DNA from: Frigoribacterium sp. MEB024
GTDB lineage: Bacteria > Actinomycetota > Actinomycetes > Actinomycetales > Microbacteriaceae
DNA length: 64,000 nucleotides
Assembly: GCF_000878135.1 (NCBI RefSeq)
Contig: NZ_JXQZ01000028.1
Coordinates: 1 to 64,000 of the forward strand
Reading direction: 5' to 3'
The notes beneath the pieces were generated by a model. It had not been told where the DNA came from, did no database searches, and saw only the letters and a list, made by a program, of their open reading frames with translations. Every line of letters begins with the position of its first letter. The stretch's first letter is position 1. The position numbers and the translations under genes are program-made. Shown in pieces: positions 2,421 through 63,754 of the stretch.

Positions 2421-2441
2421 CCCGCGCCTCGCTGCCGGGCC

Positions 2442-2456
2442 GACCCGCGCCTCCTG
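2442..2456 (-). repeat. Dispersed 16-bp motif copy (reverse orientation)
   Basis: GACCCGCGCCTCCTG, a close copy of the reverse complement of CGAGGAGGCGCGGGTC. A shorter copy begins at 2421, directly after the anti-sigma stop codon, and a forward copy lies at 2546-2560 in the 3' end of the opposing gene. Confidence 0.7.
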
Positions 2457-2473
2457 CTCTCGTCCGTCGAGAT

Positions 2474-2519
2474 GTCACGACGTGCCGCTCCCGTCGCGCC
2501 GTGAGCCGCGACTCGTGAA
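2474..2519. repeat. Palindromic element, family B, copy 1
   Basis: Imperfect inverted repeat with arms GTCACGACgtgCCGCTC and GAGCCGCgACTCGTGA, located between convergent genes. Its flanks, including GTCTCGCCGGGC just to the right, match a second copy at 35953-35998. It may act as a bidirectional terminator. Confidence 0.55.
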
Positions 2520-2531
2520 GTCTCGCCGGGC

Positions 2532-3569
2532 TCAGACGACGGTCAAGGAGGCGCGGGTCGCCTCGATCGTCGCGAGCAGCGACCTCGAGTCGGCCAGGGA
2601 GTGCAGGGGTGAGTCGCGCAACCCGGCATCCACGAAGGACGCGAGGGCCGTCGCCTGGTACGCGAGCCCCTGGCGGCCGGTCGGGACGGTCGGGTCGTTC
2701 CAGACCGCTGACCCGGCATCGGTCGTCAGCTCGAACGTCGCGGGGAAGACGAGGTTCTGCAGGGTGCGGATCGACCCGGTCGTTCCCGAGATCGTGCCGA
2801 GCCCGGGCGACGTCGTGAGCAGGCTCGTCGCCGCGGTGGCGAGCACCCCGTCGGCCGTGCGGGTGACGACGGCCGCGTCGAGGTCGACGCCGTCGGCCCG
2901 GGTCGAGCCGGTGGCGTGCCATTCGACGGGGTGACCGGTCGCGAACTGGGTGAACCAGAACGCGTAGACGCCGATGTCGAGCAGCGCGCCGCCGCCGAGG
3001 GCCGGGTCGGTCATGCGTCCGCCGGCCGAGAGGTCGTTGGCCCAGGCGACGTCGGCGGTCGCGAGCCGCACGTCGCCGATCGCCCCGTCGTCGAGCAGCG
3101 CGGCGATGACGGTGGTGTGCGGCAGGTAGCGCGTCCAGAGTGCCTCCATCGCGAGGACGCCCGCGGCGCTCGCCGCGGCCACGATCTCGTCGGCCTCGGC
3201 CGTGCTGGTCGCCATCGGCTTCTCGATCAGGACGTGCTTGCCGGCACGGATCGCGGTCAAGGCGTCCGGCAGGTGCCGGCTGTGGGGCGTGGCCACGTAG
3301 ACGACGTCGACGTCGGGGGAGGTGACCAGCGCCTCCTGGTCGCCGTACGCGGTGTCGACGCCGTGGGTGCGGGCGAACGCCTCGGCCCGGTCGAGGCTGC
3401 GCGAGGCCACGGCGACCACGCGCTGGTCGGTGTGCGCATGAAGGGCGTCGGTGAAGTCGCCGGCGATCTCGCCCGGGCCGATCACGCCCCAGCGCAGGGT
3501 CGGCCCGCCGCGCAACGGGACGGCCGTCGAGGCGGGGAATGTCGGGGTGCTCGGGGTCTGCGTGGACAT
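2532..3569 (-). CDS. Gfo/Idh/MocA family oxidoreductase
   Basis: 345-residue NAD(P)-dependent sugar-type dehydrogenase. The Rossmann domain starts at residue 27 (WGVIGPGEIAGDF); the hallmark EKP motif is in HVLIEKPMATS, after YVATPHSRH. The C-terminal domain carries the GGGALLDIGVY segment typical of the trans-dihydrodiol dehydrogenase-like branch. The substrate cannot be told from sequence. The ATG follows GAGGAGA by five bases. The gene is convergent with the anti-sigma gene, and its last codons contain a copy of the dispersed 16-bp motif, translated as EATRASLTVV. Confidence 0.85.
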   Translation of the reverse strand: MSTQTPSTPTFPASTAVPLRGGPTLRWGVIGPGEIAGDFTDALHAHTDQRVVAVASRSLDRAEAFARTHGVDTAYGDQEALVTSPDVDVVYVATPHSRHLPDALTAIRAGKHVLIEKPMATSTAEADEIVAAASAAGVLAMEALWTRYLPHTTVIAALLDDGAIGDVRLATADVAWANDLSAGGRMTDPALGGGALLDIGVYAFWFTQFATGHPVEWHATGSTRADGVDLDAAVVTRTADGVLATAATSLLTTSPGLGTISGTTGSIRTLQNLVFPATFELTTDAGSAVWNDPTVPTGRQGLAYQATALASFVDAGLRDSPLHSLADSRSLLATIEATRASLTVV

Positions 3570-3646
3570 GCGGTCTCCTCGGTGTCACGTCGTCGTGCGT
3601 GCGTCCATCTTCGCGGGTGCGGAGCAGGCCGGGGCGTCGAGAGCTC

Positions 3647-4492
3647 TCAGCCCTGCTCGGCGAACCGACCCACGCCGATCACGTCGAGCAACCGCAGCTT
3701 GGCGTCGTCGTCGGACCCGGGCGTCGCCGTCAGCACGAGCAGCGTCTGCGACTGGTCCTCGGTGAAGAGCGCCTGGCAGTCGACCTCGATCCGGCCGAGC
3801 TCGGGGTGGAGCAGCGTCTTGCGGTCGTCGAAGCGTTGGTGCACGGCGTGCCGAGCCCAGATCGTCGCGAACTCCTCGCTCGACGCGAGCAGCGCCTCCA
3901 CGAGTTCTCGCGGTCGGCCTCCGCCGCCCGCCATGCTGAGCGCCGCCCGCAGCCCGGAGGCCTGCAGCTCGAGCTGGTGCGCGTGGTCCTCGACCGGGTA
4001 GGAGGCGCGCTCGGCCGGGTCGGTGAACCACCGGTGGAACGCGCTGCGGGCCAGCCCCTCGTGCCGCATCTGGTCGCCGAGCAGGGCGACCGCGAGGCGG
4101 TTCTGTGCGAGCGTCTCGGCCAGGTCGCTGAGGACGAGCGCGGGGGTGTCGACCAACCGGTCGAGCACCCGCCGCAACGCGGGACTGACGTGGTCGCCGC
4201 CGCGCGTCCGGCGAGGCGGGTGGTGGCCGGTCAGGCGGTAGAGGTGGTCGCGCTCGTCGAGGCTCAGTCGCAGCCCCCGGGTGAGGGCGACGAGCATCTG
4301 CTCGGACGGCTGCGGGCCACGCTGCTGCTCGAGCCGCGCGTAGTAGTCGGTCGACATGCCGACGAGCCCCGCCACCTCTTCACGACGCAACCCGGCGGTC
4401 CGTCGCCGCACGCCCTCGGGCAGCCCCACGTCGGACGGTCGCAGGGCCTCTCGGCGGTGGCGGAGGAAGTCGGCGAGGTCGGCGCGGTCCAT
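3647..4492 (-). CDS. HTH regulator with MmyB-like ligand-binding domain
   Basis: 281-residue XRE-type repressor or activator. Residues about 1-75 hold the helix-turn-helix (RRTAGLRREEVAGLVGMSTD, then YYARLEQQRGPQPS), which is the signature of this family in actinobacteria. Residues about 100-265 form the MmyB PAS-like ligand domain (contains LAQNRLAVALLGD and a conserved RWFTDP). It is divergent from an SDR gene with a 173-bp gap. Family members commonly control the adjacent short-chain dehydrogenase, so that is the likely target. Confidence 0.88.
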   Translation of the reverse strand: MDRADLADFLRHRREALRPSDVGLPEGVRRRTAGLRREEVAGLVGMSTDYYARLEQQRGPQPSEQMLVALTRGLRLSLDERDHLYRLTGHHPPRRTRGGDHVSPALRRVLDRLVDTPALVLSDLAETLAQNRLAVALLGDQMRHEGLARSAFHRWFTDPAERASYPVEDHAHQLELQASGLRAALSMAGGGGRPRELVEALLASSEEFATIWARHAVHQRFDDRKTLLHPELGRIEVDCQALFTEDQSQTLLVLTATPGSDDDAKLRLLDVIGVGRFAEQG

Positions 4493-4665
4493 GGCCCCAT
4501 GCTGTCAGCCGCGGCACCCGCCAACCAGGGAGCGCCGATCCCTGGACGAGCGCTCTCTGCCGCACCGCGCCTCCCCGGGTCAGAGTGGTGGTCGTCCCCC
4601 CGACCGACGTCGGTGCGACGACCACCACCGGCCGCGCCGAGCGCGGCACACCCGAAGGAGCAACC

Positions 4666-5724: not shown

Positions 5725-6327
5725 GTGACCAGCCCGACGCCCCGACCCGACGACACCTGCCGAGGAGGCGCGGGTCGGCTGATGGACCGCTCCTGCGGTC
5801 GTCCGGTCGACCCGTCGTCACCCGTGCCGCTCTGTGACCGGCACCTCGCACTCGCCGCCGACTGGGCCGCCTCGCTCGAGGGGTCGGGCGAGGGAGTGAC
5901 CGACCTGCTGCCGTCCCCCTGCCTCGCCTGCGGGTCGCGGCTCGGCGTGCACTGGCCGTCGGGGTGGCTCTGCGCTGTCTGCGAGTGGCGTCACGGCGAC
6001 GTGCCTGACGGCGAGATCGGGGTCGTGCGGATCGACGTCGTCTACTACATCCGCTTCGACGACCGCATCAAGATCGGCACCTCGTCGAACCCCCGACAGC
6101 GGCTGGGCACGCTCTGGCACGACGAGCTGCTGGCCTTCGAGCGTGGCGACCGCCTGGTCGAACGGCGGCGGCACGGGCAGTTCGCGGCGTCCCGGTTCGG
6201 CCGCACCGAGTGGTTCGCGCACAGCGCCGAGCTCGACGCCCACGTCGCGGGCCTGGCGCAGGGCGTCGACGACCCGTGGCAGCGCTACGCCCGCTGGCGC
6301 AGCGAGGCGCTGGCCCTGCGCGGCTGA
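5725..6327 (+). CDS. GIY-YIG/T5orf172-type nuclease-like protein
   Basis: 200 residues. The N-terminal half contains two cysteine-rich stretches (a C-x3-CDRH cluster and CLACGSRLGVHW with a later CAVCEW) that look like zinc-binding treble-clef elements. The C-terminal half has the T5orf172/GIY-YIG pattern: VVYYIRFDDRIKIGTSSNPRQRL, a conserved Glu-Arg-Arg helix (VERRRHGQF) and a GRTEWF strand. The family cuts DNA or binds nucleic acid in phage and repair contexts; here the role is unknown. The GTG start is supported by a -10 box six bases upstream. Residues 12-18 overlap a perfect dispersed 16-bp motif (5761-5777). Confidence 0.7.
   Translation: MTSPTPRPDDTCRGGAGRLMDRSCGRPVDPSSPVPLCDRHLALAADWAASLEGSGEGVTDLLPSPCLACGSRLGVHWPSGWLCAVCEWRHGDVPDGEIGVVRIDVVYYIRFDDRIKIGTSSNPRQRLGTLWHDELLAFERGDRLVERRRHGQFAASRFGRTEWFAHSAELDAHVAGLAQGVDDPWQRYARWRSEALALRG
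5761..5777 (+). repeat. Dispersed 16-bp motif copy (forward, perfect)
   Basis: CGAGGAGGCGCGGGTCG, a complete copy of the recurring sequence, located inside the first codons of the GIY-YIG-like gene. Confidence 0.75.
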
Positions 6328-6622: not shown

Positions 6623-7825
6623 TCAGCGGCGCAGGTAGGCGTCGACGAGCAGCGGGCCGCGGATGGCACGCAGCTCGTCGAGCAGCAAGGGCACCGTCTG
6701 CCGCGTCAGCCCCGACAGCTGCAGGTCGTGGGGGCCGAGCGCGGGCAGCTTTCCGGTCCGGAGCCGCACGACCTCCCAGCCGGCGGCCCGCAGTGCGGCG
6801 TCCTTGCGGCGGTCGGCGGTCTCGCGGTGCCCGACGTGTTCGAGCCCGTGCCGCCCCGTCGAGTCGTACTCGATCGCGACCCGCAGTTCGCTCAGCACGA
6901 TGTCCGGCCACACCTCGACGTGGTCGAAGAACGGACGCCCCACGCGCACCGCGTTCAGGCCGGGCTCGAACTCGAGCCGGGCCGTCAGTTCTGCCCGCAG
7001 TTCGGCCTCGACCGCCGACGCCGGCTTCGGGGCACACGCGCTGACGAAGGGTGTGCCGGTCGGCAGCGCCGGCGTCTTGTCACACACCGGCCGGGAGGCG
7101 CGGGACGGTCGGGAGGCGCGGGTCGGCCGCGAGGCACGGGTCGGCGGAGACGCGGGCTCGGTCCGGGCGGCCTCGGCGGGCGGGGAGGGACGCTCGGTGC
7201 GGGCGACCTCGGTGGGCGGGGAGGCGCCCTCCGCGGGGGACGCGCGGGAGGGCTCGGGACTGCGGCTCGCATCCGCGCGCGGAGTCGTCGAGGGCAGGCC
7301 CGTGCTCGAGCCGCGGCGACGCCGGGGCGGGGGTGACGGGGCCGTCGGCACCGCGCCTCCTGCGCTCTGGGCCGCCCAGGCCTGAGCCGGTGCCGCCCAG
7401 GACTGACCCGGTGCCGGCGAGTCCTGCGCCGGTGCGCTCGCGCCCTGCGCCGGCATGCCCTCGGCCTGCGCCCGGACGACCGCCGCCGGCGCCATCGGCG
7501 GCCGCATCGGCAGCGCGCGCGGCGCGGCGAGTTCGCTGCACTCGGGGCACCACGACGACCGGCGTCGCTCGCGCCCGGGGCGATGCCGCTGTTCGTCGGG
7601 GGTGGCGACGAACACGTGGCCCGCGTCGCAGAGCCAGCACAGCCACACGTCGGCCGCGGGCGGGATCTGGCTGAGCACGATGCCGCCGTTGTGTTCGGGC
7701 CGGTACTGCCGCACGAGCACCGGGTACGACGCCCAGGCCTCGCGATAGCTGCCCACCGGGTAGGGCACGGCGAGGCCGCGCGACGTCCGGCGTCGCGCCC
7801 ACCAGGCGGCGATCGGCTCGGGCAC
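6623..7825 (-). CDS. Zinc-ribbon protein with Vsr/DUF559-like endonuclease domain
   Basis: About 400 residues. The N-terminal zinc ribbon is formed by CWLC and CPEC separated by about 30 residues. A long Pro/Ala/Arg linker follows, then a C-terminal PD-(D/E)XK-like core: a PDIVL strand, VAIEYDSTGRH, and RRKDAALRAAGWEVVRLR, as in very-short-patch-repair and DUF559 proteins. The linker end reads TRASRPTRASRPSRASRP because three copies of the dispersed 16-bp motif lie in tandem (7093-7144). GTG at 7825 is preferred over GTG at 7831 because TAGCGT sits six bases upstream of it. Probably a DNA-processing or nuclease-like protein of unknown role. Confidence 0.65.
   Translation of the reverse strand: MPEPIAAWWARRRTSRGLAVPYPVGSYREAWASYPVLVRQYRPEHNGGIVLSQIPPAADVWLCWLCDAGHVFVATPDEQRHRPGRERRRSSWCPECSELAAPRALPMRPPMAPAAVVRAQAEGMPAQGASAPAQDSPAPGQSWAAPAQAWAAQSAGGAVPTAPSPPPRRRRGSSTGLPSTTPRADASRSPEPSRASPAEGASPPTEVARTERPSPPAEAARTEPASPPTRASRPTRASRPSRASRPVCDKTPALPTGTPFVSACAPKPASAVEAELRAELTARLEFEPGLNAVRVGRPFFDHVEVWPDIVLSELRVAIEYDSTGRHGLEHVGHRETADRRKDAALRAAGWEVVRLRTGKLPALGPHDLQLSGLTRQTVPLLLDELRAIRGPLLVDAYLRR
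7093..7144 (+). repeat. Three tandem copies of the dispersed motif
   Basis: GGGAGGCGCGGGACGG, GGGAGGCGCGGGTCGG and GAGGCACGGGTCGG follow each other at about 19-bp spacing within the linker-coding part of the endonuclease-like gene. Confidence 0.7.
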
Positions 7826-7928: not shown

Positions 7929-10418
7929 ATGCCCGACACCGCACCTCCCGACGTGCCCACGCCCGCGATCGACGTGCCCACCCCGGCGACCGACACCCCC
8001 GCCGACACCCCCGCCGACGTCCACGCCCGCGGTTTCGTCCGCGTCCGCGGCGCCCGCGAGAACAACCTGCGCGCGGTCGACGTCGACGTCCCGCGCGACA
8101 GCATCGTCGCCTTCACCGGCGTCTCGGGGTCGGGCAAGTCGTCGTTGGCCTTCGGCACGATCTTCGCCGAGGCGCAGCGCCGCTTCTTCGAGTCGGTTGC
8201 CCCCTACGCGCGGCGGCTGATCGCCCAGGGCGGCGCCCCGCACGTCGACGAGATCACCGGCCTGCCCCCGGCCGTCGCCCTGCAGCAGCGCCGCGGCGCC
8301 CCGAGCTCGCGGTCGACCGTCGGCACCCTGACCACCCTGTCGAACTCGATGCGGATGCTCTACTCGCGGGCCGGCAGCTACCCCGCGGGGGCCGACCGGC
8401 TCGAGTCGGACTCGTTCTCACCGAACACCGTCGCCGGGGCCTGCCCGCGCTGCCACGGGCTCGGCATCGCGCACGAGGTGACCGAGGCGTCGGCCGTCCA
8501 CGACCCCGGCCTGAGCATCCGCGACGGCGCGATCACCGCCTGGCCGGGAGCCTGGCAGGGCAAGAACCTCCGCGACGTCACGAGCGTGCTCGGCTACGAC
8601 ATCGACCGCCCCTGGCGTGACCTGCCGCAGGCCGATCGCGACTGGCTGCTCTACACCGACGAGCAGCCCGTGGTCGAGGTGACCCCTCAACGCGACCGCG
8701 TCGCCAAGCCGTACAAGGGCCGCTTCTGGAGCGCCCGCGCCTTCGTCATGCACACCCTCGCCGACTCGCAGAGCGAGACCCAGCGCACCAAGGTGCTGCA
8801 GTACGTCGAGAGCGGGCCCTGCTCGCTCTGCGGCGGCAGTGGCCTCACCCGGGCGGCGCTCGCCGTGACCTTCGCCGGTCGCACGATCGCCGAGCTGAAC
8901 GCCCTGCCGATCGCCGAGCTGGGCGACGTCCTGCGGCCGACGGCGACCCTGACGAGCGCGTCGGCCGCTGTGTCGAACGCGTCCTCGGGCGAGGTCACCG
9001 AGGTCGCCGTCCGCATCGCCGCCGACCTGCTGGCGCGGACGACCGTGCTCGACGACCTCGGGCTCGGCTACCTCAGCCTCGGCCGCGCGACGCCGACCCT
9101 GTCGCCGGGCGAGATGCAGCGGCTCCGCATCGCGACGCAGCTGCGCTCGGGCCTGTTCGGCGTCGTCTACGTGCTCGACGAGCCGAGCGCCGGCCTGCAC
9201 CCCGCCGACGCCGAGTCCCTCGTCGAGGTGCTCGAACGGCTGCGGGCCAGCGGCAACTCGGTGTTCGTCGTCGAGCACGACATGAGCATCGTGCGTCGTG
9301 CCGACTGGGTCGTCGACGTCGGCCCGGGGGCCGGAAGCCAAGGAGGCGCGGTGCTCTACAGCGGGCCCGTCGCCGGGCTCGCCGGGGTCACCGACTCCGT
9401 CACGAGGCGGTTCCTCGACCCCTCCGCCGACGGTCGCGCCCGGGGCGGGGCGCCCGTCCGCCGCGAACCGACCGCCACCCTCGAACTGCGCGGCGTCATC
9501 CGGCACAACCTCGACGGCGTCGACGTCGACCTGCCGCTCGGCGTGCTGACCGCGGTCACGGGGGTGTCGGGCTCGGGCAAGTCGACCCTGGTCGGCGGCG
9601 TGCTGGCCGAGACGGCGACGAGCCACGCGCGGGTCGACCGCGTCGTGCAGGTCGACCAGAAGCCGATCGGCCGGACCCCGCGGTCGAACCTCGCGACGTA
9701 CACGGGACTGTTCGACGCCGTGCGCCAGGCCTTCGCCGCGACCGACGAGGCGCGTGCCCGGGGCTACGGCGCCGGACGCTTCTCGTTCAACGTCGCCGGG
9801 GGCCGCTGCGAGGTCTGCCAGGGCGAGGGGTTCGTCTCGGTCGAGCTGCTCTTCCTGCCCGGCAGCTACTCGCCCTGCCCCGAGTGCCACGGAGCCCGCT
9901 ACAACGCCGAGACGCTCGAGGTCACCTGGCACGACGCGACCGTGGCGGACGTGCTCGCGATGACGGTCGACGAGGCGGCGACGTTCCTCGCCGAGGTGAC
10001 CAGCGCCTCACGGGCCCTCGAGACGTTGCGGCAGGTCGGGCTCGGCTACCTGAGACTCGGTCAGCCGGCCACCGAACTCTCGGGCGGCGAGGCGCAGCGC
10101 ATCAAGCTCGCGACCGAACTGCAGCGGGCACGGTCGGGCCACACGCTCTACCTGCTCGACGAGCCCACCACGGGGCTGCACCCGGCCGACGTCGAGCTGC
10201 TCGTCACGCAGCTGCAACTGCTGGTCGACGCGGGCAACACCGTCGTCGTGGTCGAGCACCACATGGGTGTCGTGGCGGCGTCCGACCACGTGATCGACCT
10301 CGGTCCCGGGGGAGGGGATGCGGGGGGACGCGTGCTCGCCGTCGGCACGCCCGAGCAGGTGGCCGGGGCGACCGGCAGCCGCACCGCGCCGTACCTCGCG
10401 GCGGCGCTGCCCGCCTGA
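7929..10418 (+). CDS. Class II UvrA-like ABC ATPase (UvrA2/DrrC type)
   Basis: 829 residues, shorter than the roughly 950 of canonical UvrA and lacking the UvrB-binding region, as in the UvrA2/DrrC group linked to DNA repair or drug tolerance. Two ATP-binding modules: Walker A GVSGSGKSS at about residue 64 and GVSGSGKST at about 546; ABC signatures LSPGEMQRLRIA (first, with Pro in place of the usual Gly) and LSGGEAQRIKLA (second); Walker B strands VLDEPSAGLHP and LLDEPTTGLHP. Zinc-finger cysteines are present (CPRCHGLG, CSLCGGSG, CEVCQGEG/CPECHGAR). It binds DNA in the cytoplasm. The first 30 residues are Pro/Thr-rich and disordered. Confidence 0.9.
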   Translation: MPDTAPPDVPTPAIDVPTPATDTPADTPADVHARGFVRVRGARENNLRAVDVDVPRDSIVAFTGVSGSGKSSLAFGTIFAEAQRRFFESVAPYARRLIAQGGAPHVDEITGLPPAVALQQRRGAPSSRSTVGTLTTLSNSMRMLYSRAGSYPAGADRLESDSFSPNTVAGACPRCHGLGIAHEVTEASAVHDPGLSIRDGAITAWPGAWQGKNLRDVTSVLGYDIDRPWRDLPQADRDWLLYTDEQPVVEVTPQRDRVAKPYKGRFWSARAFVMHTLADSQSETQRTKVLQYVESGPCSLCGGSGLTRAALAVTFAGRTIAELNALPIAELGDVLRPTATLTSASAAVSNASSGEVTEVAVRIAADLLARTTVLDDLGLGYLSLGRATPTLSPGEMQRLRIATQLRSGLFGVVYVLDEPSAGLHPADAESLVEVLERLRASGNSVFVVEHDMSIVRRADWVVDVGPGAGSQGGAVLYSGPVAGLAGVTDSVTRRFLDPSADGRARGGAPVRREPTATLELRGVIRHNLDGVDVDLPLGVLTAVTGVSGSGKSTLVGGVLAETATSHARVDRVVQVDQKPIGRTPRSNLATYTGLFDAVRQAFAATDEARARGYGAGRFSFNVAGGRCEVCQGEGFVSVELLFLPGSYSPCPECHGARYNAETLEVTWHDATVADVLAMTVDEAATFLAEVTSASRALETLRQVGLGYLRLGQPATELSGGEAQRIKLATELQRARSGHTLYLLDEPTTGLHPADVELLVTQLQLLVDAGNTVVVVEHHMGVVAASDHVIDLGPGGGDAGGRVLAVGTPEQVAGATGSRTAPYLAAALPA

Positions 10419-10443: not shown

Positions 10444-10483
10444 ACCGAGGAGGCGCGGTGCAGCCGACCCGCGCCTCCTCGGT
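10444..10483. terminator. Terminator-like hairpin built from two inverted 16-bp motifs
   Basis: ACCGAGGAGGCGCGG at 10444-10458 pairs perfectly with CCGCGCCTCCTCGGT at 10469-10483 around a ten-base loop. It lies between the convergent uvrA-like and SDR genes and would serve both. No U-tract follows. Each arm is a copy of the dispersed motif. Confidence 0.7.
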
Positions 10484-12023: not shown

Positions 12024-12410
12024 TCAGCGGGTGACCGCGAAAGCCGGAGGAGGCGCGTCCACCGTCGTCGCCGTGCCGCACGCGATGGCGTGGCTGATCC
12101 GTTCGACGAGTTGGTCGGGGACGGGGCGGCCCCAGCCGAAGGCGACGGTGTCCTTGGCGCGTCGGTGGGGTGAGACGTCGCCTTCGAGGGCTTCGTCGAA
12201 CCGGGGGACGGGGTAGATGCCGAGGTGGCGGGTCCAGGCCGCGAAGTAGAGCGTCTGCCCCTCGTCGAAACGGATGGCCGGCATGCCGTACCGGAGGCTC
12301 TCGACGCCTCCGGCGCACCCGGAGTGGATGGCCCGTCGCACCCGTTCGAGGGCTTCGCGCTTCTCGGGCGGGAACCCCGCGATGTACTGATCGACCACGC
12401 TGTCGCTCAT
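12024..12410 (-). CDS. DUF1801 domain protein
   Basis: 128 residues: SVVDQYIAGFPPEKREALER, then SLRYGMPAIRF, YFAAWTRHLGIYP and the C-terminal FGWGRPVPDQLVERI, matching the DUF1801/YdhG family, small cytoplasmic proteins of unknown biochemical function. ATG at 12410 follows AGAGGAC; the reading frame continues further upstream but without conserved sequence. A dispersed-motif copy (12046-12059) is in its 3' end. Confidence 0.8.
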   Translation of the reverse strand: MSDSVVDQYIAGFPPEKREALERVRRAIHSGCAGGVESLRYGMPAIRFDEGQTLYFAAWTRHLGIYPVPRFDEALEGDVSPHRRAKDTVAFGWGRPVPDQLVERISHAIACGTATTVDAPPPAFAVTR

Positions 12411-28272: not shown

Positions 28273-28289
28273 CGACCCGCGCCTCCTGG
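28273..28289 (-). repeat. Dispersed 16-bp motif copy (reverse)
   Basis: CGACCCGCGCCTCCTGG, just before the 3' end of the MFS gene. Confidence 0.7.
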
Positions 28290-34002: not shown

Positions 34003-35930
<1,928 letters not shown>

Positions 35931-49361: not shown

Positions 49362-49378
49362 GACCCGCGCCTCCTCGG
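49362..49378 (-). repeat. Dispersed 16-bp motif copy (reverse, perfect)
   Basis: GACCCGCGCCTCCTCGG in the 113-bp gap between the binding protein and isomerase genes; the gap otherwise contains no terminator. Confidence 0.75.
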
Positions 49379-54600: not shown

Positions 54601-56134
54601 GCCCGCCAGGCCGGTCGCGGGTGGCGTCGTCGCCGCGGTCGACCTCGGCGCGACGAGCGGGCGCGTCGTGCTCGGCCACGTCGACCGCGACAGCGTGCGG
54701 CTGCAGCACGTCGCCCGTTTCGCGAACGAGCCGGTCACGCTGCCCGAGGGACGGCCCGTCGGTCAGGGCACGAGTGCCGGAGGCGCGGGCCGGGTCGGTC
54801 TGCACTGGGACGTCACGGGGCTCTGGCGGTCGGTCACCGCGGGGCTCGCGCAGGCACTCCGCGACGAACCCGGTACGGCCTCGGTCGGCGTCGACTCGTG
54901 GGCGGTCGACTACGGCCTGCTCCGCGACGGACGCCTGCTCGGCGCCCCCTACCACTACCGGGACGAGCGGTCGGCGGCCGGCGTGGAGGCCGTGCACGCC
55001 GTCGTGGCGCCCGCCGCGCTCTTCGCCCGCACGGGTCTGCAGCACCTGCCGTTCAACACGGTCTTCCAGCTCGCGGCCGACCGCGCCGCCGGGGTGCTCG
55101 AGCCCGCCGATCGGGCCCTGCTCGTGCCCGACCTCGTTTCGTGGTGGCTCACCGGCACCGCCGTCACCGAGCGCACGAACGCGTCGACGACGGGGCTGCT
55201 CTCGCCCGTGACGGGGGAGTGGGACGTCGAGCTGCTCGGTCGTCTCGGCCTCGCGACCGACCTGTTCGCACCCCTCGTCGACCCGGGTGCCTCACTCGGG
55301 GCGCTGTTGCCCTCGGTCGCCGCGGCGATCGGGGCGCCGGCCTCCCTCGGGGTCACGGCCGTCGGCTCGCACGACACCGCCTCGGCCGTGGTCGCCGTGC
55401 CGCTCGCGGGCGACGACGCCGCCTACGTCTCGAGCGGCACGTGGTCGCTCGTCGGTCTCGAGCTGCCGTCGCCCCTCCTCGGCGACGAGGTGCGGGCTGC
55501 CGGCTTCACGAACGAGGGCGGCGTCGACGGCCGCGTGCGCTTCCTCAAGAACGTCTCGGGCCTCTGGCTGCTCAGCGAGTCGATGCGTGCCTGGAGCCGC
55601 TCGGGGACCTCGGCCGCCGAGCGTAGCAGCGACCTCGCCGCCCTCCTCGCCGAGGCGGCCGCCGTCACCCGGCCCGTCCCGGTCTTCGACGCCACCGACA
55701 CCCGCTTCACGCCGCCCGGCGACATGCCCGCACGCATCGAGACGTGGTGCGTCGAGCACGACGTCGCGCCCCCGCGGGGCCGGGCCGAGACGGTGCGGAG
55801 CATCCTCGAGTCTCTCGCGGCGGCCTACGCGGCGACCCTCCGGGACGCCGAGCGGCTCTCGGGCCGCACGGTCCGCACCGTGCACGTCGTCGGGGGCGGG
55901 TCGCAGAACGAGCTGCTCTGCCAGCTGACCGCCGACCGCACCGGCCGCACCGTGCTCGCCGGTCCCGTCGAGGCGACCGCCCTCGGCAACGTACTCGTCC
56001 AGGCGCGGGCCGCCGGTCTCGTCGACCGCTCGTCCTCCCTCGAGTCGCTCCGCGCGCTCGTGGCCGCTTCGTCCGCCCCCGTGACGTACCGCCCGCGGTC
56101 GGGAGCGTCCTCGGCCGCCGCCCGCGCCTCCTGA
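54566..56134 (+). CDS. rhaB: Rhamnulokinase (FGGY family)
   Basis: 522 residues from the first ATG. N-terminal FGGY ATPase motif [31 protein letters not shown], a middle domain with [12 protein letters not shown], and C-terminal [25 protein letters not shown]. It phosphorylates L-rhamnulose at C1 using ATP. The gene begins with three in-frame ATGs in a 15-bp repeat and ends in a dispersed-motif copy (56121-56133) that supplies the codons for Ala-Arg-Ala-Ser and the stop. Confidence 0.94.
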
Positions 56135-56171: not shown

Positions 56172-57410
56172 ATGGTCGACCGCCGCCTGCCGAAGTTCCA
56201 CGACCTCGCGCCGCTCATGCAGTTCAAGAAGCCCACCTTCGACCTCAAGGCGAAGCGCCTCCGCGAGGCGCTGACGATCGAGGACCTCCGGCGCATCGCG
56301 AAGCGGCGGACGCCCACGGCGGCGTTCGACTACACCGACGGCAGCGCCGAGGCCGAGATCTCGCTGCGACGCGCACGACAGGCGTTCCGCGACGTGCAGT
56401 TCAACCCGGCGATCCTGCACGACGTCGCGACGGTGGACACCGGGTGGGACGTGCTCGGGAGGCGGGTCGAGCAGCCGTTCGGGATCGCACCGACCGGCTT
56501 CACCCGCATGATGCAGACCGAGGGCGAGAAGGCGGGTGCCGCCGCGGCCGCCGCCGCGGGCATCCCGTTCAGCCTGTCGACGATGGGCACGGCGAGCGTC
56601 GAGGACGTCGCGGCCGCCGCACCCGGGGGCCGGAACTGGTTCCAGCTGTACATGTGGAAGGACCGCGACCGATCGATGGCGCTGGTCGACCGGGCGGCGA
56701 AGGCCGGGTTCGACACGCTGCTGGTGACGGTGGACGTCCCGGTCGCGGGGGCGCGCCTCCGGGATTCGCGCAACGGCATGACGATCCCGCCCTCGCTGAC
56801 GCCGAAGACGATCATCGACGCGTTGCCCCGGCCGTGGTGGTGGGTGGACTTCCTCACGACCGAGCCGCTCGCGTTCGCGTCGCTCGACCGCTGGTCGGGC
56901 ACGGTCGCCGAGCTGCTGAACACCATGTTCGACCCGACGGTCACCTACGACGACCTGGCCTGGATCAAATCACAGTGGCCGGGCAAGCTCGTCGTCAAGG
57001 GCGTGCAGACCGTCGACGACGCCCGCCGCGTGACCGATCTCGGCGTCGACGCGCTCATCCTGTCGAACCACGGCGGGCGTCAACTCGACCGGGCGCCGAT
57101 CCCGTTCCACCTGCTGCCCGACGTCGTGAAGGAGGTCGGCGCCGACACCGAGGTCCATCTCGACACGGGCATCATGTCGGGTGCCGACATCGTCGCCGCG
57201 GTCGCGCTCGGGGCCCGGTTCACCCTGATCGGCCGGGCCTACCTGTACGGGCTGATGGCCGGCGGACGCGAGGGCGTCGACCGGGCGATCGAGATCCTGT
57301 CGGTCGAGATCGCCCGCACGATGCGTCTGCTCGGGGTCAACTCCCTCGACGAACTCGAGCCCCGGCACGTCACCCAGCTCGAGCGCCTGGTGCCGCGCGC
57401 TCGCGGGTGA
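56172..57410 (+). CDS. lldD: FMN-dependent L-lactate dehydrogenase
   Basis: 412 residues, alpha-hydroxy-acid oxidase family: [35 protein letters not shown], and active-site His-Gly-Gly-Arg-Gln in [15 protein letters not shown]. It oxidizes the L-lactate produced by the fused RhaD enzyme to pyruvate, thus completing rhamnose breakdown. It follows the kinase by 37 bases and is the last gene of the operon, ending before a family A palindrome. Confidence 0.92.
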
Positions 57411-58694: not shown

Positions 58695-59798
58695 CTAGGG
58701 CCCTCGTCGGCGAGGCGTCCGCAGGGTCGGTTGCGTTGCAGGATGTGGACGCGACAGCGGCGGCAGGTGCACCCCGGCCAGCATGCAGCGCACCGACCCG
58801 CCGGCCAGCTCGATGGTGGGCACGTCCAGGGGCAGGGGCCGGGCGTGCCTCGAGATCGTCCGGCGCTGCGCCGTCGTGAGGGACGCCCAGCCGCGTGCCG
58901 AGATCGCCAGCACGGGTCCGTCGGCCCCCGCCAGTTCGAGCGCGTTGCCGGCGAACTCGCCGAGCTGGGCGCGGGTGAGGGCGACCACCTCGCGTCCGGA
59001 GGCCGCCAGGCGCTCGACCACGCGCCTCCGTTCGCTCGTCGACTCGATCGATTCGAGGCCGACCAGGGCGAACCGCGACGCCACGCTCATCATGACGTTC
59101 GTGTGGTAGATCGGCACGCCGGTCGCGTCGGTGGCGGTGAAGGTCACGGGCTCGTGTCCGAGGTCGGAGCAGACCAGGGCGACGGCCGCCCGGTCGGCCC
59201 GGTGCGAGAGCGCGACGTAGGCGACGCGCCCGACGTGGTCGAGGACGAGCGCCCCGGTGCCCTCGACGACGATCCCGCGCCGTTCGAGCGGCGAACGGTC
59301 GAGCACCTCGGTCACGAGGTACCGCTCGCGCAGCAGGTCCACCACGTCCGTCCGTCGCTCGCCCCGGCGGTTCGGCGAGTGCATGGGGTAGAGCACCACC
59401 CGGCCGTCGTCGTGGGTCGAGAACCAGTTGTTCGGGAACACCCCGTCGGGCCGGTCGGTCCGCTCGTCGTCGACGAGGTGCACCGTGACGCCCGCCGCGC
59501 GCAGTGCCTCGGCCGCCCGGGTCACCTCGTCGAACGCACGTGCCGCGAGCTGGGCCCGGGTCGCGTCCACCTCGGCCGGGTCGGTCTGGAACGCGTTGTC
59601 GGCCGCGGTCTGCGGGTTCGGCGTGAAGTGGTGCGGCCGCACCATCACGACCGCGGCGGGCGACTGGACGGCCGTCCGCGCCTCCTCGTCGGCGCTTCGG
59701 GTGCGCGAGGAGGCGCGGAGTGCGGGGGACGCCGCCGACGTCACCGCGGCGGTGGCCGGGGACGAGGAGGCGCGGGGCGGGGGAGCGACGGTCGTCAC
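58695..59798 (-). CDS. ctlX: CtlX-like amidinohydrolase (citrulline/arginine-type)
   Basis: About 367 residues from a GTG at 59798; the enzyme core begins VVMVRPHHFTPNPQTAADNAFQ and includes GVFPNNWFSTHDDGRV, RGIVVEGTGALVLD, HTNVMMSV and the catalytic-Cys region GSVRCMLAG, all typical of CtlX/arginine-deiminase-fold hydrolases. An ATG at 59645 would start inside the conserved strand, so the longer form is more likely. Its first 50 residues contain three dispersed-motif copies. Downstream of ornithine cyclodeaminase by 53 bases, forming an arginine/ornithine catabolic unit. Confidence 0.8.
   Translation of the reverse strand: MTTVAPPPRASSSPATAAVTSAASPALRASSRTRSADEEARTAVQSPAAVVMVRPHHFTPNPQTAADNAFQTDPAEVDATRAQLAARAFDEVTRAAEALRAAGVTVHLVDDERTDRPDGVFPNNWFSTHDDGRVVLYPMHSPNRRGERRTDVVDLLRERYLVTEVLDRSPLERRGIVVEGTGALVLDHVGRVAYVALSHRADRAAVALVCSDLGHEPVTFTATDATGVPIYHTNVMMSVASRFALVGLESIESTSERRRVVERLAASGREVVALTRAQLGEFAGNALELAGADGPVLAISARGWASLTTAQRRTISRHARPLPLDVPTIELAGGSVRCMLAGVHLPPLSRPHPATQPTLRTPRRRGP
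59674..59778. repeat. Cluster of three dispersed 16-bp motif copies
   Basis: Reverse copy GTCCGCGCCTCCTCGTCG (59674-59691), forward copies CGAGGAGGCGCGGAG (59706-59720) and GACGAGGAGGCGCGGGGC (59761-59778), all in the N-terminal extension of the CtlX gene. Confidence 0.7.
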
Positions 59799-59851: not shown

Positions 59852-60883
59852 TCAGACGCCGACGGGCCGACGGGCGGCGACGAGGCCGAAGAGGTCCTTC
59901 GGGTCGTCGGGATCGGCGACGAGGTCGATCTCGACGGCGTAGTCCGTGCCCACGACGTCCTCGCGCAGGTACTTGAGGGCGCAGACGTCCTCGATGGCGA
60001 AGCCGACCGAGTCGAAGATCGTGATCTGCTCGTCGCTCGTCCGCCCGGGGCGCTGCCCGGCGACGACCTGCCACAGTTCGGTGACGGCGAAGTCGGCCGG
60101 CTGGTGCTGGATCTCGCCCTCGACGCGGGTCTGCTCGGGGTACTCGACGAAGACGTCGGCCCGGCGGAGCGTCGCGGGGTCGAGCTCGGTCTTGCCCGGG
60201 CAGTCGCCGCCGATCGCGTTGACGTGGACGCCGGGGCGGACGGCCTCGTCGGGCAGCACGATCGCGTTCTGCTTGTCGGCCGTGCAGGTCGTGATGACGT
60301 CGGCGCCGTCGGCCGCCTCGCCGGGGCTCGCGCACACCGTGATGTCGAAGCCGAGCGGCTCGAGGTTGCGGACGAACTTCGCGGTGGCGCGGGGGTCGAC
60401 GTCGAAGACGCGGACCGTCTCGAGTCCGAGGGAGGCGCGCATCGCCAGGGCCTGGAACTCGGCTTGTGAACCGGCGCCGATCAGGGCGAGCACGCGCGAG
60501 TCGGCCCGGGCGAGGCGCTTGGCGGCCATGGCGCTCGTGGCGGCGGTGCGGAGCGCCGTCAGGATCGTCATCTCGGCGAGGAAGGTCGGGTAGCCCGTGT
60601 CGACGTCGGCGAGCACGCCGAAGGCGGTGACGGTCTGGTAACCGCGTCCCGGGTTCGACGGGTGGCCGTTGACGTACTTGAAGCCGTAGGTCTCGCTGTC
60701 GCTGGCCGGCATCAGCTCGATGACGCCGATGGGGCTGTGGGAGGCGACGCGGGGCGACTTGTCGAAGGCGGGCCACCGGGCGAAGTCGCGCTCGAGGGCG
60801 GTCACCATGCCGCTGGTGATCGGGCCGACCCCGCGGTCGGTGACCCATCGGATCATGTTCTGCACGTCCACGAAGCGCACCAC
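59852..60883 (-). CDS. ocd: Ornithine cyclodeaminase
   Basis: 343 residues. NAD-binding GAGSQAEFQALAM (about residue 135), GYQTVTAFG and NAIGGDCPGKTELD match the ornithine cyclodeaminase/mu-crystallin family, which converts L-ornithine to L-proline and ammonia. AGGAGGAGG lies five bases before the GTG at 60883. The gene pairs with ctlX downstream and is divergent from an Lrp/AsnC regulator, the usual partner of amino-acid catabolic genes. Confidence 0.9.
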   Translation of the reverse strand: MVRFVDVQNMIRWVTDRGVGPITSGMVTALERDFARWPAFDKSPRVASHSPIGVIELMPASDSETYGFKYVNGHPSNPGRGYQTVTAFGVLADVDTGYPTFLAEMTILTALRTAATSAMAAKRLARADSRVLALIGAGSQAEFQALAMRASLGLETVRVFDVDPRATAKFVRNLEPLGFDITVCASPGEAADGADVITTCTADKQNAIVLPDEAVRPGVHVNAIGGDCPGKTELDPATLRRADVFVEYPEQTRVEGEIQHQPADFAVTELWQVVAGQRPGRTSDEQITIFDSVGFAIEDVCALKYLREDVVGTDYAVEIDLVADPDDPKDLFGLVAARRPVGV

Positions 60884-61032: not shown

Positions 61033-61464
61033 ATGGCGGATCTCGACGAACTCGACCGGCGCCTCCTGGCGGCCCTGCGGGTCGACGCGCGCGAGTCGGC
61101 GGCGAGCCTCGCGCGGCGGTTGGGCGTGACGCGGGCGACGATCACTTCGCGGCTCGACCGGCTCGAGGCGACGGGCACGGTGCTCGGCTACACCGTGAGG
61201 GTGCGCGAGGCCGACGACCCCGACCTGATCCGTGCCGTCGGCTTCATCGAGATCGAGGGGCGGTCGACCGACCACGTCATCCGGCAGCTGCGGGGCTTCC
61301 CCGAGGTGGCGTCGCTCCACACGACGAACGGCGGCTGGGACCTCGTCGCCGAGCTGCGCACGTCGTCGCTCGGCGAGTTCGATCGCGTGCTGGCCCGCAT
61401 CCGCAGCGTCGAGGGCGTCGTCAACAGCGAGACGAGCCTGCTGCTCAGCTCCGTCCTCCGCTGA
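61033..61464 (+). CDS. Lrp/AsnC family regulator
   Basis: 143 residues. HTH LDRRLLAALRVDARESAASLARRLGVTRATITSRLDRLE, then a RAM ligand-binding domain. It senses an amino acid, probably arginine or ornithine, and should control the divergent ocd-ctlX operon; the 149-bp gap would contain its operator, which I did not identify. A -10 box seven bases upstream suggests leaderless expression. Confidence 0.9.
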   Translation: MADLDELDRRLLAALRVDARESAASLARRLGVTRATITSRLDRLEATGTVLGYTVRVREADDPDLIRAVGFIEIEGRSTDHVIRQLRGFPEVASLHTTNGGWDLVAELRTSSLGEFDRVLARIRSVEGVVNSETSLLLSSVLR

Positions 61465-61494: not shown

Positions 61495-62463
61495 TCAGGC
61501 CGCGCCGCGCCTCCCGGCGACGATGCTCTTGAGGGCCTCGTCGAGGTGAGGGTGCTCGAATTCGTACCCGGCGTCGACGAGGTGTTCGGGCAGCACCCAC
61601 CGGCTCTTGAGCACGAGCTCGGTCTCGGTGCGGAGCACGGCCGTGCCGAGCTCGAGCATCCACCGCCAGGCGGGCAGGCCGAACGGCACGCCGAGCACGC
61701 GGCGCAGGGTGCGCATCACGGTGCGGTTGTCGCTCGGGTTCGGCGACGACAGGTTGAGCGGGCCCTCGACGGACGAGTCCGCACGGGCGAACCGGATCGC
61801 CCCGAGCACGTCGTCGACGTGTATCCAGCTGAACTTCTGCCGCCCACCGCCTCGGCCCTCGTGGTGGTACGTCCCGGCCGCGAGCCGTGCCCGGGTGGCC
61901 GGCCACGGGCCGTCGAACTGCGGCCCGCCGAGACCCGCCCGCACGAGGTTCATCAGCGGGACGAGTGCGCTGCCGTCGCCCAGCACGATCGCCATGCGCA
62001 AGGCGACGCGACGGGTGGCGGGCAGCTCGCCCGCGAAGAACTCGGCCTCCCACGCGGTGGCGACGTCGACCGAGAACCCCGAGCCGATCTCGCCGCCCGA
62101 CTCGGTCATCGGGCGGTCCTCGGCGTGGCGGTAGATCGTCGCCGTCGACGAGTTCATCCAGACCCGAGGAGGCGCGGCGCACGCGAGCACCGCCTCCTTC
62201 AGTTCGCGTGTGGTCTCGACGCGTGACCGCACGATCTCGGCGCGGTTCTCGGGGCCGTAGCGGCAGTTCACGCTCTTGCCCGCGAGGTTGACGAGCAGGT
62301 CGGCCCCGTCGAGCAGGGCGGTGATGCCGGCGGTGTCGCCCCACGACGCGTCCGGTCCGTGGCGGCCGATCAGGCTGACGCGGGCACCCTCGGCGCGGAA
62401 CGCGGCCGCGAGGTGCTGCCCGATGAAGCCGCTGGCTCCGGCGAGGACGATGTGGTCGGTCAT
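61495..62463 (-). CDS. TIGR01777-type epimerase
   Basis: 322 residues. Extended SDR with GASGFIGQHLA at the N-terminus, LLVNLAGKSVNCRY, WMNSSTATIYRHAED (the catalytic-Tyr region) and a DUF1731-like C-terminus (LGVPFGLPAWRWMLELGT, then LVDAGYEFEHPHLDEALKSI). Function in the cell is unknown; relatives include YfcH/SulA-type proteins. TAGCGT lies seven bases before the ATG at 62463. Confidence 0.88.
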   Translation of the reverse strand: MTDHIVLAGASGFIGQHLAAAFRAEGARVSLIGRHGPDASWGDTAGITALLDGADLLVNLAGKSVNCRYGPENRAEIVRSRVETTRELKEAVLACAAPPRVWMNSSTATIYRHAEDRPMTESGGEIGSGFSVDVATAWEAEFFAGELPATRRVALRMAIVLGDGSALVPLMNLVRAGLGGPQFDGPWPATRARLAAGTYHHEGRGGGRQKFSWIHVDDVLGAIRFARADSSVEGPLNLSSPNPSDNRTVMRTLRRVLGVPFGLPAWRWMLELGTAVLRTETELVLKSRWVLPEHLVDAGYEFEHPHLDEALKSIVAGRRGAA

Positions 62464-62470: not shown

Positions 62471-62476
62471 ACGCTA
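62471..62476 (-). promoter_or_regulatory. -10 box of a leaderless transcript
   Basis: TAGCGT on the minus strand, seven bases upstream of ATG 62463. Confidence 0.45.
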
Positions 62477-62544
62477 GGGGACCGGTCGGTCCCCGTCCGC
62501 GCGATCCCTCGACATCGAGCAGACCTCACGTGTGGGGTGCCCGT

Positions 62545-62550
62545 TAGCCT
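62545..62550 (+). promoter_or_regulatory. -10 box of a leaderless transcript
   Basis: TAGCCT, seven bases upstream of the sulfurtransferase ATG at 62558. Confidence 0.45.
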
Positions 62551-62557
62551 CGTCGGC

Positions 62558-63400
62558 ATGAGCCATCCCCTGGTGACCGCTGCCGGGCTCGACGCGACCC
62601 TCACGGGTGGGGGAGCGGTGCGCCTTCTCGACGTCCGCTGGCGGCTCGACCGCCCGGACGGCCTCCCCGCCTTCCGCGAGGGGCACCTGCCCGGCGCGGT
62701 CTACGTGGACCTCGACACCGAGCTCGCCCGGCACGGCGCGCCCGTCGAGGGGCGGCATCCGCTGCCCGACCGGGCCGACCTGCAGGCCGCCGCGCGCCGG
62801 TGGGGGCTGCGCGACGGGGATGCCGTCGTCGTCTACGACGACCTCGGCGGGCAGTCGGCGGCTCGCGCGTGGTGGCTCCTGCGGGCCTCGGGCGTCGCCG
62901 ACGTGCGCTTGCTCGACGGCGGGCTCACGGCCTGGACGGACGCGGGCCTACCCCTCGAGCAGGGCGACGCGGACGTCGAGCCCGGCGACGTCACCCTCGG
63001 CGACGATCCGTGGCCCGTGATGGACGCCGACGCGGCCGCCTCGTGGTCGCGCACCGGTGTGCTGATCGACAGTCGGGCCGCCGAGCGCTACCGCGGCGAC
63101 GTGGAGCCCGTCGACCCGCGGGCCGGTCACGTCCCGGGTGCCGTCAACCTGCCGACGGCGGGCAACCTCGACTCCACGGGTCGGTTCGTCGATGCCGCCG
63201 CGCTGCGCGCCCGGTTCGAGGAGGCGGGGGTCACGCCCGCGACACCGGTGGCCGTCTACTGCGGCTCGGGCATCACCGCGGGCCACAACGCCTTGGCCGC
63301 GACGATCGCCGGGTTCGACCCGGTGCTCTTCGCCGGATCGTGGAGCGCCTGGTCGAACGACCCCACGCGCCCCGTCGCCACCGGCGGCCGCCCCGGGTGA
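62558..63400 (+). CDS. sseA: Two-domain rhodanese sulfurtransferase (SseA type)
   Basis: 280 residues. The first rhodanese domain (about 1-140; LLDVRWRL, HLPGAVYVDLDTEL) lacks the active Cys, with Asp in VVYDDLGGQSA. The second (about 150-280) has the catalytic Cys in VYCGSGITAGHNALA. It transfers sulfur from thiosulfate or 3-mercaptopyruvate to thiol acceptors. Start codon ATG with a -10 box seven bases upstream. Confidence 0.9.
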   Translation: MSHPLVTAAGLDATLTGGGAVRLLDVRWRLDRPDGLPAFREGHLPGAVYVDLDTELARHGAPVEGRHPLPDRADLQAAARRWGLRDGDAVVVYDDLGGQSAARAWWLLRASGVADVRLLDGGLTAWTDAGLPLEQGDADVEPGDVTLGDDPWPVMDADAAASWSRTGVLIDSRAAERYRGDVEPVDPRAGHVPGAVNLPTAGNLDSTGRFVDAAALRARFEEAGVTPATPVAVYCGSGITAGHNALAATIAGFDPVLFAGSWSAWSNDPTRPVATGGRPG

Positions 63401-63419
63401 CCGAGGGACGGGGCCGCGG

Positions 63420-63626
63420 TCAGTCGGCGTGACCGGGGACGGGGACGTCCGTCCGGTCGTCGACCACGGCGTCGACGGCCGTGAGGCGCAGGGCGTCGAT
63501 GCCGTTCATCGCCGCGCCCTTCTGCTTGTAGCCGCCGGACGAGGCGAGGACCTCGCCGTTGCCTGCCGTCAGGACGAAGCGGTACTCGCCCGAGGTGTCC
63601 TGTGTGACGACGAAGGTGCCTGCCAT
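63420..63626 (-). CDS. YegP family protein (DUF1508)
   Basis: 68 residues, one DUF1508 repeat: AGTFVVTQDTSGEYRFVLTA, NGEVLASSGGYKQKGAAMNGIDA. E. coli YegP has two such repeats; a single copy is common in actinobacteria. Small cytoplasmic protein of unknown function. GGGGA lies about four bases before the ATG at 63626. Confidence 0.85.
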   Translation of the reverse strand: MAGTFVVTQDTSGEYRFVLTAGNGEVLASSGGYKQKGAAMNGIDALRLTAVDAVVDDRTDVPVPGHAD

Positions 63627-63754
63627 GGGAGTCCCCTTGCACGAAGTGGTGCACGCGCTCTGCGTGGCGACAGCATAGGGCCGCGCCCCGACCGAGGGGC
63701 GACCCGCGTCGCCGAGCCGACCGGCGCCTCCTCGTGTGCGGTCACACCGACCGT

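Follow-up and report, generated by a model that had tools for sequence, protein, structure and literature searches.

A dispersed, genus-specific word in Frigoribacterium genomes as a candidate DNA uptake sequence

Introduction

Does a short word that recurs throughout a stretch of bacterial chromosome, in and out of genes and in both orientations, serve the cell, and if so, how? The question is raised by a 64-kb stretch (71% GC; G000:C58:1-64000, hereafter the window) of the 3.41-Mb draft genome of Frigoribacterium sp. MEB024, a harmless bacterium of leaves and air, in which a 16-base word (the 16-mer) and its variants are scattered. Here, we propose that it serves the genus Frigoribacterium as a DNA uptake sequence, a tag of self-DNA, a reading that we consider probable but well short of certain.

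To our knowledge, uptake sequences are known only from two Gram-negative families. The Neisseriaceae and Pasteurellaceae are the only families named in an excerpt of one account (PMC7811141), and no actinobacterial uptake sequence was found in a literature search of titles and abstract beginnings of open-licence papers, which makes this negative weak evidence. As far as these searches show, the Frigoribacterium word would, if uptake is confirmed, be the first uptake sequence in Actinobacteria or Gram-positive bacteria.

Abundance and placement of the word

The original prediction placed the 16-mer at 19 positions of the window with at most one or two changes. The word is indeed present, offset by 3 bases or fewer, at all 19; its degree of similarity holds at 15 of them (6 exact, 5 with one change and 4 with two), while the remaining 4 carry three changes. 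Two one-change copies were found beyond these 19 (Table 1). When up to three changes are allowed, the window has 44 matches, compared with 8.2 (standard deviation 3.2, maximum 15) in 100 dinucleotide shuffles. Of the 9-base core GGAGGCGCG there are 43 copies (22 on the + and 21 on the - strand), against 5.6 (maximum 13) in the shuffles; GGAGGCGCGG is found 34 times, where an order-3 Markov chain predicts 0.64.

Across the whole genome, the 11-bp core AGGAGGCGCGG is present in 1,107 copies (566 +, 541 -; reversed control 2 and 4), and the genome-wide count of the 16-mer that had been suggested at the outset gave, with one mismatch allowed, 200 + and 184 - copies (reversed control 1 and 0). Markov expectations were calculated for a 458-kb sample made up of the window, 240 kb of contig 63 and 154 kb of contig 1. 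In this sample, GGAGGCGCG is found 244 times (15.8 expected from an order-3 chain and 38.5 from an order-5 chain, which already includes the 6-mers of the word itself), AGGAGGCGCGG 124 times (1.2 and 3.9) and AGGAGGCGCGGGTC 37 times (0.03 and 0.10). If the sample is typical, the genome would hold about 1,800 copies of GGAGGCGCG. The flanks of the core are weaker than AGGAGGCGCGG, being C/G-rich on the 5' side and following G/T-T/G-C-G-n-G-T on the 3' side. A low-threshold expectation-maximisation motif fit drifted to codon-like periodic patterns in several sets and was discarded apart from its k-mer tables.

Genes predicted with a simple gene finder account for 87-90% of the sample. Predicted genes hold 159 of the 244 GGAGGCGCG copies (0.39 per kb) and the gaps 85 (1.54 per kb), with the highest density, 2.64 per kb, between convergent genes. 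Intragenic copies occur in all frames and on both strands (66 on the gene strand, 93 opposite), and shuffles of synonymous codons within genes yield 32.2 copies (maximum of 60 shuffles: 46) where 159 are observed and, for the 11-mer AGGAGGCGCGG, 4.7 where 71 are observed. Logos from coding (200) and intergenic (85) matches to one weight matrix are closely alike, weak flanks included. Gene calls and strand counts agree with the original prediction that copies lie inside genes, between them and at gene ends, about equally in both orientations. That prediction had also named two outcomes as telling against it, counts no higher than a third-order Markov expectation and enrichment confined to one paralogous protein family; the sample lies far above the order-3 expectation, and the sites are in unrelated genes and in gaps. 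Chance is ruled out by the dinucleotide shuffles of the window and by the Markov chains, and codon use and protein repeats by the synonymous-codon shuffles together with the intergenic counts.

Neighbouring copies less than 100 bp apart form 19 inverted and 7 direct pairs in the sample. By their midpoints, 16 inverted pairs are intergenic, and each of the 16 lies 74 bp or less from a predicted gene 3' end, one of them overlapping it. Three inverted pairs were folded, with predicted energies of -35.7, -50.5 and -37.7 kcal/mol (z -4.8, -6.5 and -2.8). Position and predicted hairpins speak for the suggestion that inverted pairs act as terminators; no U-run was seen after the hairpin of the window (10446-10481). 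Terminators alone do not account for the word, as 159 of the 244 copies are intragenic.

Maintenance of sites among close species

The gene for phosphoenolpyruvate (PEP) carboxykinase offers a view of how a single site arose. The copy at 35231 reads W-T-R-A-S-S in 5 of 6 Frigoribacterium, the sixth keeping Pro, and all 20 homologues shown from other genera have Pro in place of this Arg, 19 of them aligning without a gap at the copy. Since Pro is found elsewhere and gaps are almost absent, this copy was built by substitutions, against a conserved residue. Another copy in this gene, at 34043, lies within an N-terminal extension of variable length.

Further sites were compared at the comEC locus, a single locus of 15-22 kb, between pairs of related genomes that are not independent of one another. 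Among seven close species there were 624 comparisons (97 unaligned, 21 with an indel inside the site), so that 506 of the 527 aligned comparisons were gapless, 407 of them identical. Divergence was 0.033 in the word versus 0.115 in its flanks, a ratio of 0.29; the ratio for 141 permuted control words was 1.14 (2,053 of 5,340 identical), and word identity exceeded the control in 41 of 42 ordered, non-independent pairs of close species. Seen from the side of the window's genome, nine gapless comparisons lack the word, seven by one base and two by two. Indels affect 4% of sites versus 8% of the 9-mers beside them. At this one locus and at the one enzyme site, then, sites in close species change by point substitution and are maintained.

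Taxonomic range and a second word

A comparison with related genomes, likewise proposed at the outset, found AGGAGGCGCGG abundant in Frigoribacterium alone among the relatives searched: 383-1,239 copies in each of 16 Frigoribacterium genomes and 0-37, mostly near the reversed-control counts, in 83 others (44 from other genera of the family and 39 from other families of the order). In named genomes, the matches listed for the inverted-pair pattern include at least 63 from Frigoribacterium, at least 10 from Curtobacterium and at least 7 from elsewhere. Four Curtobacterium genomes hold 15, 36, 21 and 79 copies of the core against 28, 15, 16 and 43 of the reversed control, an excess of at most about twofold, some hairpins aside, which lends little weight to a word shared between the two genera. 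These terminator-like hairpins have a nearly fixed stem, CAGGAGGCGCGGTGC, in differing surroundings and no strong genome-wide enrichment (L063, L083, L087, L092, L095, L102, L119, L133). In viral contigs, 75 stretches hold one copy each of the 16-mer and were read as chance matches. The use of variants differs between species of Frigoribacterium: F. endophyticum (G007) also enriches a one-base variant, GGAGTCGCG (22 versus 4.4 in genes), and GGAGTCGCG(G) beside the main word in this species (L242-L246, L380, L355) is possibly a sub-dialect.

Many sister genera favour a different word. GGATGC ranks 1-3 among 6-mers in 9 of 25 other genera sampled (a 1.2-kb stretch of G019 was left out of the ranking), and in genes it exceeds synonymous shuffles with z of at least 4 in 12 of the 25 (20-160 kb per genus); the same test on eight Frigoribacterium sets gave z of at most 3.2. 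The excess in genes is about 2.1-fold in four other genera, compared with 1.30-fold in the large sample of the window's genome. The longer, strand-balanced form CGGATGC[CG] exceeds 400 copies per Mb, calculated with rounded genome sizes, in 24 of 44 further genera of the family (maximum 1,509), in none of the 39 genomes from other families (maximum 248) and in none of the 16 Frigoribacterium (maximum 202). Small-genome relatives have words of their own in genes, ATCGGTG (39 versus 11.4; G025; L389, L390) and AGCGGAT (39 versus 9.5; G020; L387, L388). The differing genus words may be dialects of one system. The deep forks of the PEP carboxykinase tree are unsettled, so that it places Frigoribacterium neither inside nor outside the CGGATGC genera.

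Competence and pilus genes

Could these bacteria take up DNA? Of 60 relatives, 58 have comEC, as do all 16 Frigoribacterium, and in the window's genome leuS is followed by comEA (SLBB and helix-hairpin-helix domains) and then comEC. The comEC open frame (L349:9586-13071, + strand) also has a DNA polymerase III delta (HolA) C-terminal domain, so a single frame appears to serve both comEC and holA. The same genome has a Tad-type locus with a T2SSE (TadA-like) ATPase, a T2SSF protein, a DUF4244 protein and TadE. A T2SSE match like the Tad-locus ATPase is listed in 16 of 16 Frigoribacterium, and we infer that all 16 are TadA. In the window's genome, a separate type IVa pilus locus encodes a PilB-like ATPase with an MshEN domain, a second T2SSE ATPase, a PilC-type T2SSF protein, PilM, a prepilin peptidase and two proteins with an N-methylation motif; a full-length PilB-type match is present in 13 of 16 Frigoribacterium and was not found in G002, G003 and G006.

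Two Microbacteriaceae, Rhodoluna lacicola and Aurantimicrobium photophilum, are reported to undergo natural transformation, for which comEC is given as the likely route (PMC11577799). Transformation of the actinobacterium Micrococcus luteus is reported to depend on a Flp pilus (PMC4322843).

The uptake reading and its alternatives

What, then, might the word do? The original prediction offered either a DNA uptake sequence or the site of a chromosome-organizing protein, each of them, to its knowledge, new among actinobacteria. Its first suggestion fits the anatomy and evolution of the word well and nothing found refutes it, although it stays unproven. The fit rests on the density of the word, its strand symmetry, its presence in and out of genes, the hairpin pairs at gene ends, substitution-type changes and maintenance among close species, restriction to one genus and the competence genes; as in an uptake sequence, the word is over-represented on both strands beyond what coding and composition give, is orientation-neutral, and is accompanied by competence machinery.

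In the mechanism that we propose, competent cells would bind extracellular DNA at the word, with a minor pilin of the Tad/Flp pilus or ComEA as the probable receptor, and the bound DNA would be pulled in through ComEC and then recombined. Fragments bearing the word would enter more often, so that word-bearing alleles would spread and be restored (uptake-driven enrichment), and inverted pairs behind genes would have been recruited as hairpin terminators. In many sister genera CGGATGC[CG] would be used, with Frigoribacterium having its own dialect in its place. More broadly, and with rather less assurance than for the word itself, we tentatively suggest that the Microbacteriaceae mark self-DNA by uptake words, CGGATGC[CG] serving in at least 24 of the 44 further genera and other words elsewhere, and that Frigoribacterium switched to the longer, private AGGAGGCGCGG, whose reader would probably be a Tad-type pilus or ComEA.

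If true, the family would provide the first example of an uptake-sequence system beyond the Neisseriaceae and Pasteurellaceae, and the first in which the reader is something other than a type IVa pilus. An actinobacterial case would add another independent origin, this time in cells that lack an outer membrane, and would imply that self-specific DNA uptake is possible without an outer-membrane type IVa pilus. With one word in roughly half of the sampled genera and a different word in a single genus, the family would offer a natural experiment on how tag and receptor change together, and donor DNA that carries the word might open hard-to-transform leaf bacteria to genetic work.

The DNA uptake sequence (DUS) of the Neisseriaceae resembles the Frigoribacterium word in being short, non-palindromic, present in more than 1,000 copies on both strands, in genes and gaps, and in forming inverted pairs as terminators (a role that position suggests here). 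The DUS has dialects, which the differing genus words here may also be. It differs in that the word here is another, GC-rich one, in a Gram-positive host without an outer membrane. The DUS has a receptor, ComP, as an excerpt of one paper states (PMC12616744). The Frigoribacterium word is kept in three species without a type IVa pilus match. The same excerpt gives two dialects of the uptake signal sequence (USS) in Pasteurellaceae (PMC12616744). Like the word here, the USS has a core with weak flanking preferences and a density of the same order, and its dialects within one family may have a parallel in the genus words here; its AT-rich flank tracts are absent here, and host, machinery and word differ. 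The Flp system of M. luteus is alike in pairing an actinobacterial Tad-type locus with comEA and comEC; we know of no uptake word described for it.

The main rival is that the word is the site of a genus-specific chromosome-organizing or nucleoid protein, kept by selection at more than 1,000 places, which we consider unlikely but worth serious attention. High density, conservation in close species, intergenic enrichment and lack of polarity would suit such a protein, and so could a mild regional excess in the single-contig 3.71-Mb chromosome of G015, where the first 1.69 Mb contain about 200 of the 344 copies of the 14-mer (about 58% in 45% of the length). However, the site is kept even where a conserved PEP carboxykinase residue changes, inverted pairs stand at gene ends, an 11-bp core with more than 1,000 exact copies is more specific than the nucleoid proteins known to us, and the different word of sister genera would require a rewired organizer.

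It is improbable that the word is a Chi-like site of a repair or recombination enzyme, even though it is short, GC-rich and dispersed. Chi-type sites have one active orientation and are strand-skewed along replichores. No such skew is seen here: the three sampled contigs have 63+/59- (240 kb), 37+/42- and 22+/21- copies of GGAGGCGCG, with 40-kb blocks ranging from 5:8 to 11:7, and in G015 the 14-mer is found 174+/170-, the first 100 copies ending at 1.69 and 1.66 Mb for the two strands. The strand mapping that the original prediction had called for accordingly found no polarity in the three contigs or in the first 1.7 Mb of G015, and this balance disfavours a use of the Chi or FtsK-orienting polar sequence (KOPS) type and largely refutes Chi-like polarity. 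The core is also longer than the Chi sites known to us, and it is enriched in gaps. Chi, KOPS and matS-type sites share with the word that they are short and dispersed, and they are recognised by proteins; they are polar or confined, whereas the Frigoribacterium word is unpolar and widely spread.

Slighter still is the chance that the word is the recognition word of a DNA modification or defence system telling self from non-self. Such a system would agree with a genus-specific word replaced by another in relatives and with the few copies in low-GC stretches: eight 4-kb segments below 66% GC hold 2 copies in all, and the ratio of sites to permuted words is about 15-18 above 70% GC, 4.6 at 64-68% and 0 in two segments below 64%. 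The core, however, is longer than usual for such sites, and known restriction words are avoided, not enriched. Under the uptake reading, the low-GC depletion perhaps fits imports that lack the tag.

A mobile or selfish short repeat, such as a repetitive extragenic palindrome (REP), a bacterial interspersed mosaic element (BIME) or a miniature inverted-repeat transposable element (MITE), is very improbable. Dispersal, some inverted pairs and a greater share of indels at sites than at control words in distant comparisons would favour it, but the coding copies in every frame and on both strands (159 of 244), the gapless alignments in close species at the comEC locus (506 of 527), the losses that are mostly of one base and the PEP carboxykinase site led us to reject it; single copies are non-palindromic, and the unit insertion and mostly extragenic placement of REP and BIME elements were not found. 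That the word is a by-product of codon use, protein repeats or terminators alone is the least credible of all, for although 71% GC, the plausible linkers E-E-A-R and T-R-A-S-S and the hairpin pairs are in its favour, the synonymous shuffles, a fourfold higher intergenic density and the mostly single copies contradict it.

Several points weigh against the word being an uptake sequence. At larger distances, change by point substitution is not seen for many sites: in 2,301 comparisons among distant Frigoribacterium (about 76% identity; 560 unaligned) indels fall in 587 of 1,741 aligned sites and the word diverges about as fast as its flanks (ratio 0.95), and in 975 comparisons with five other genera (824 unaligned) the ratio is 1.40 over 88 gapless sites, with indels in 63 of 151 aligned sites. 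Permuted words have fewer indels (5,041 of 28,427 in distant Frigoribacterium, 732 of 4,753 in other genera), and the 9-mers beside sites have indel shares of 0.29 and 0.31, somewhat below the sites themselves. At these distances the word turns over, and some sites lie in poorly aligning stretches. Spacing is no more even than random, one contig being clumpier (coefficient of variation 1.20 versus 0.79-1.12), and the low-GC depletion is partly an effect of composition, although permuted control words fall far less.

As for the second word, a weak GGATGC excess persists in the genes of the window's genome (256 versus 197, 1.30-fold, z 6.2), and a site-by-site conversion of GGATGC to GGAGGC is unsupported (14 of 199 aligned places, mostly 1-2 positions recounted). 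CGGATGC[CG] stays at or below 300 copies per Mb in every family genome of up to 1.8 Mb, so the small-genome genera, in which transformation has been shown, appear not to use it. On the side of the machinery, no receptor was identified, the tad and type IV pilus loci having been examined by Pfam naming only, and the literature search gave no transformation or uptake data for Frigoribacterium. G002, G003 and G006, which have no type IVa pilus match, hold 945, 1,152 and 879 core copies; because they keep the word, a type IVa pilus is not needed to keep it and dependence on that pilus was rejected. Should a pilus be the reader, the Tad type would be the better candidate.

Features of the window and minor observations

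Table 1. Copies of the 16-mer and of its 9-base core in the window, with strand and surroundings
Feature	Position	Strand	Context
16-mer copy, 2 changes	2442..2457	-	gap, convergent genes on either side
16-mer copy, 1 change	2544..2559	+	GFO/IDH/MocA oxidoreductase gene, 3' end
partial 16-mer copy, 2 changes, interrupted core	3324..3339	-	within GFO/IDH/MocA oxidoreductase gene
16-mer copy, exact	5761..5776	+	intergenic
16-mer copy, 2 changes	10446..10461	+	inverted pair, left arm, between convergent genes; hairpin -35.7 kcal/mol
16-mer copy, exact	10466..10481	-	right arm of hairpin 10446-10481
2-change match without core, probably chance	15255..15270	+	
16-mer copy, 1 change	28274..28289	-	gap directly behind gene 28294-29808 (-)
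16-mer copy, exact	29989..30004	+	intergenic
16-mer copy, 2 changes	30729..30744	-	within gene 30399-30851
16-mer copy, exact	34043..34058	-	PEP carboxykinase, N-terminal extension of variable length
16-mer copy, exact	35231..35246	-	PEP carboxykinase; Arg versus Pro in 20/20 other-genus homologues
partial 16-mer copy, 2 changes, interrupted core	35774..35789	+	PEP carboxykinase
2-change match, interrupted core, may be chance	42402..42417	+	within gene 40501-43098
16-mer copy, 1 change	47099..47114	-	ABC permease gene
16-mer copy, exact	49362..49377	-	intergenic
16-mer copy, 1 change	49613..49628	+	within gene 49404-50909
16-mer copy, 1 change	59763..59778	+	within gene 58695-59798
partial 16-mer copy, 2 changes, interrupted core	61054..61069	-	within gene 61033-61464
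16-mer copy, 2 changes	62165..62180	+	within gene 61495-62472
copy, 1 change in core, beyond the 19 predicted places	63217..63232	+	within gene 62537-63400
copy, 1 change in core, beyond the 19 predicted places	63719..63734	-	outside predicted genes
core GGAGGCGCG	225..233	-	
core GGAGGCGCG	970..978	+	
core GGAGGCGCG	4001..4009	+	
core GGAGGCGCG	4566..4574	-	
core GGAGGCGCG	7094..7102	+	direct pair with 7112..7120
core GGAGGCGCG	7112..7120	+	direct pair with 7094..7102
core GGAGGCGCG	7352..7360	-	
core GGAGGCGCG	9342..9350	+	
core GGAGGCGCG	12049..12057	+	
core GGAGGCGCG	16008..16016	+	
core GGAGGCGCG	22483..22491	-	
core GGAGGCGCG	27983..27991	+	
core GGAGGCGCG	30316..30324	-	
core GGAGGCGCG	31868..31876	-	
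core GGAGGCGCG	33207..33215	+	
core GGAGGCGCG	44158..44166	-	
core GGAGGCGCG	48603..48611	+	
core GGAGGCGCG	49961..49969	+	
core GGAGGCGCG	52282..52290	-	
core GGAGGCGCG	53051..53059	+	
core GGAGGCGCG	54779..54787	+	
core GGAGGCGCG	56123..56131	-	
core GGAGGCGCG	56752..56760	-	
core GGAGGCGCG	59021..59029	-	
core GGAGGCGCG	59677..59685	-	inverted pair with 59709..59717, inside a gene
core GGAGGCGCG	59709..59717	+	inverted pair with 59677..59685
core GGAGGCGCG	60431..60439	+	
core GGAGGCGCG	61506..61514	-	

The stretch at 12-20 kb of the window, with 66% GC, holds 2 core copies (12049, 16008) compared with 43 in the whole 64 kb and is perhaps a recent import. A second over-represented word, TGCCCGAGAA, has 10 copies in the window, 9 of them within the repeats of a predicted 1,811-residue surface protein (22568-28003, - strand) with many Big_9/cadherin-like repeats and a CshA repeat; the copies are mostly about 265 bp, or a multiple thereof, from each other.

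Two repeats were seen in other genomes. The 100 kb of G003:C1:1-100000 (L252-L256) contain 15 copies of AGGAGTTGCCGA(C), which at several places form facing pairs about 72 bp apart and resemble a distinct mobile or structured repeat of that species. In G023:C1:1-20000 (L265), a longer repeat, GCGGGTTGAGGA(GG), is found about 10 times in 20 kb and is probably a REP-like element.

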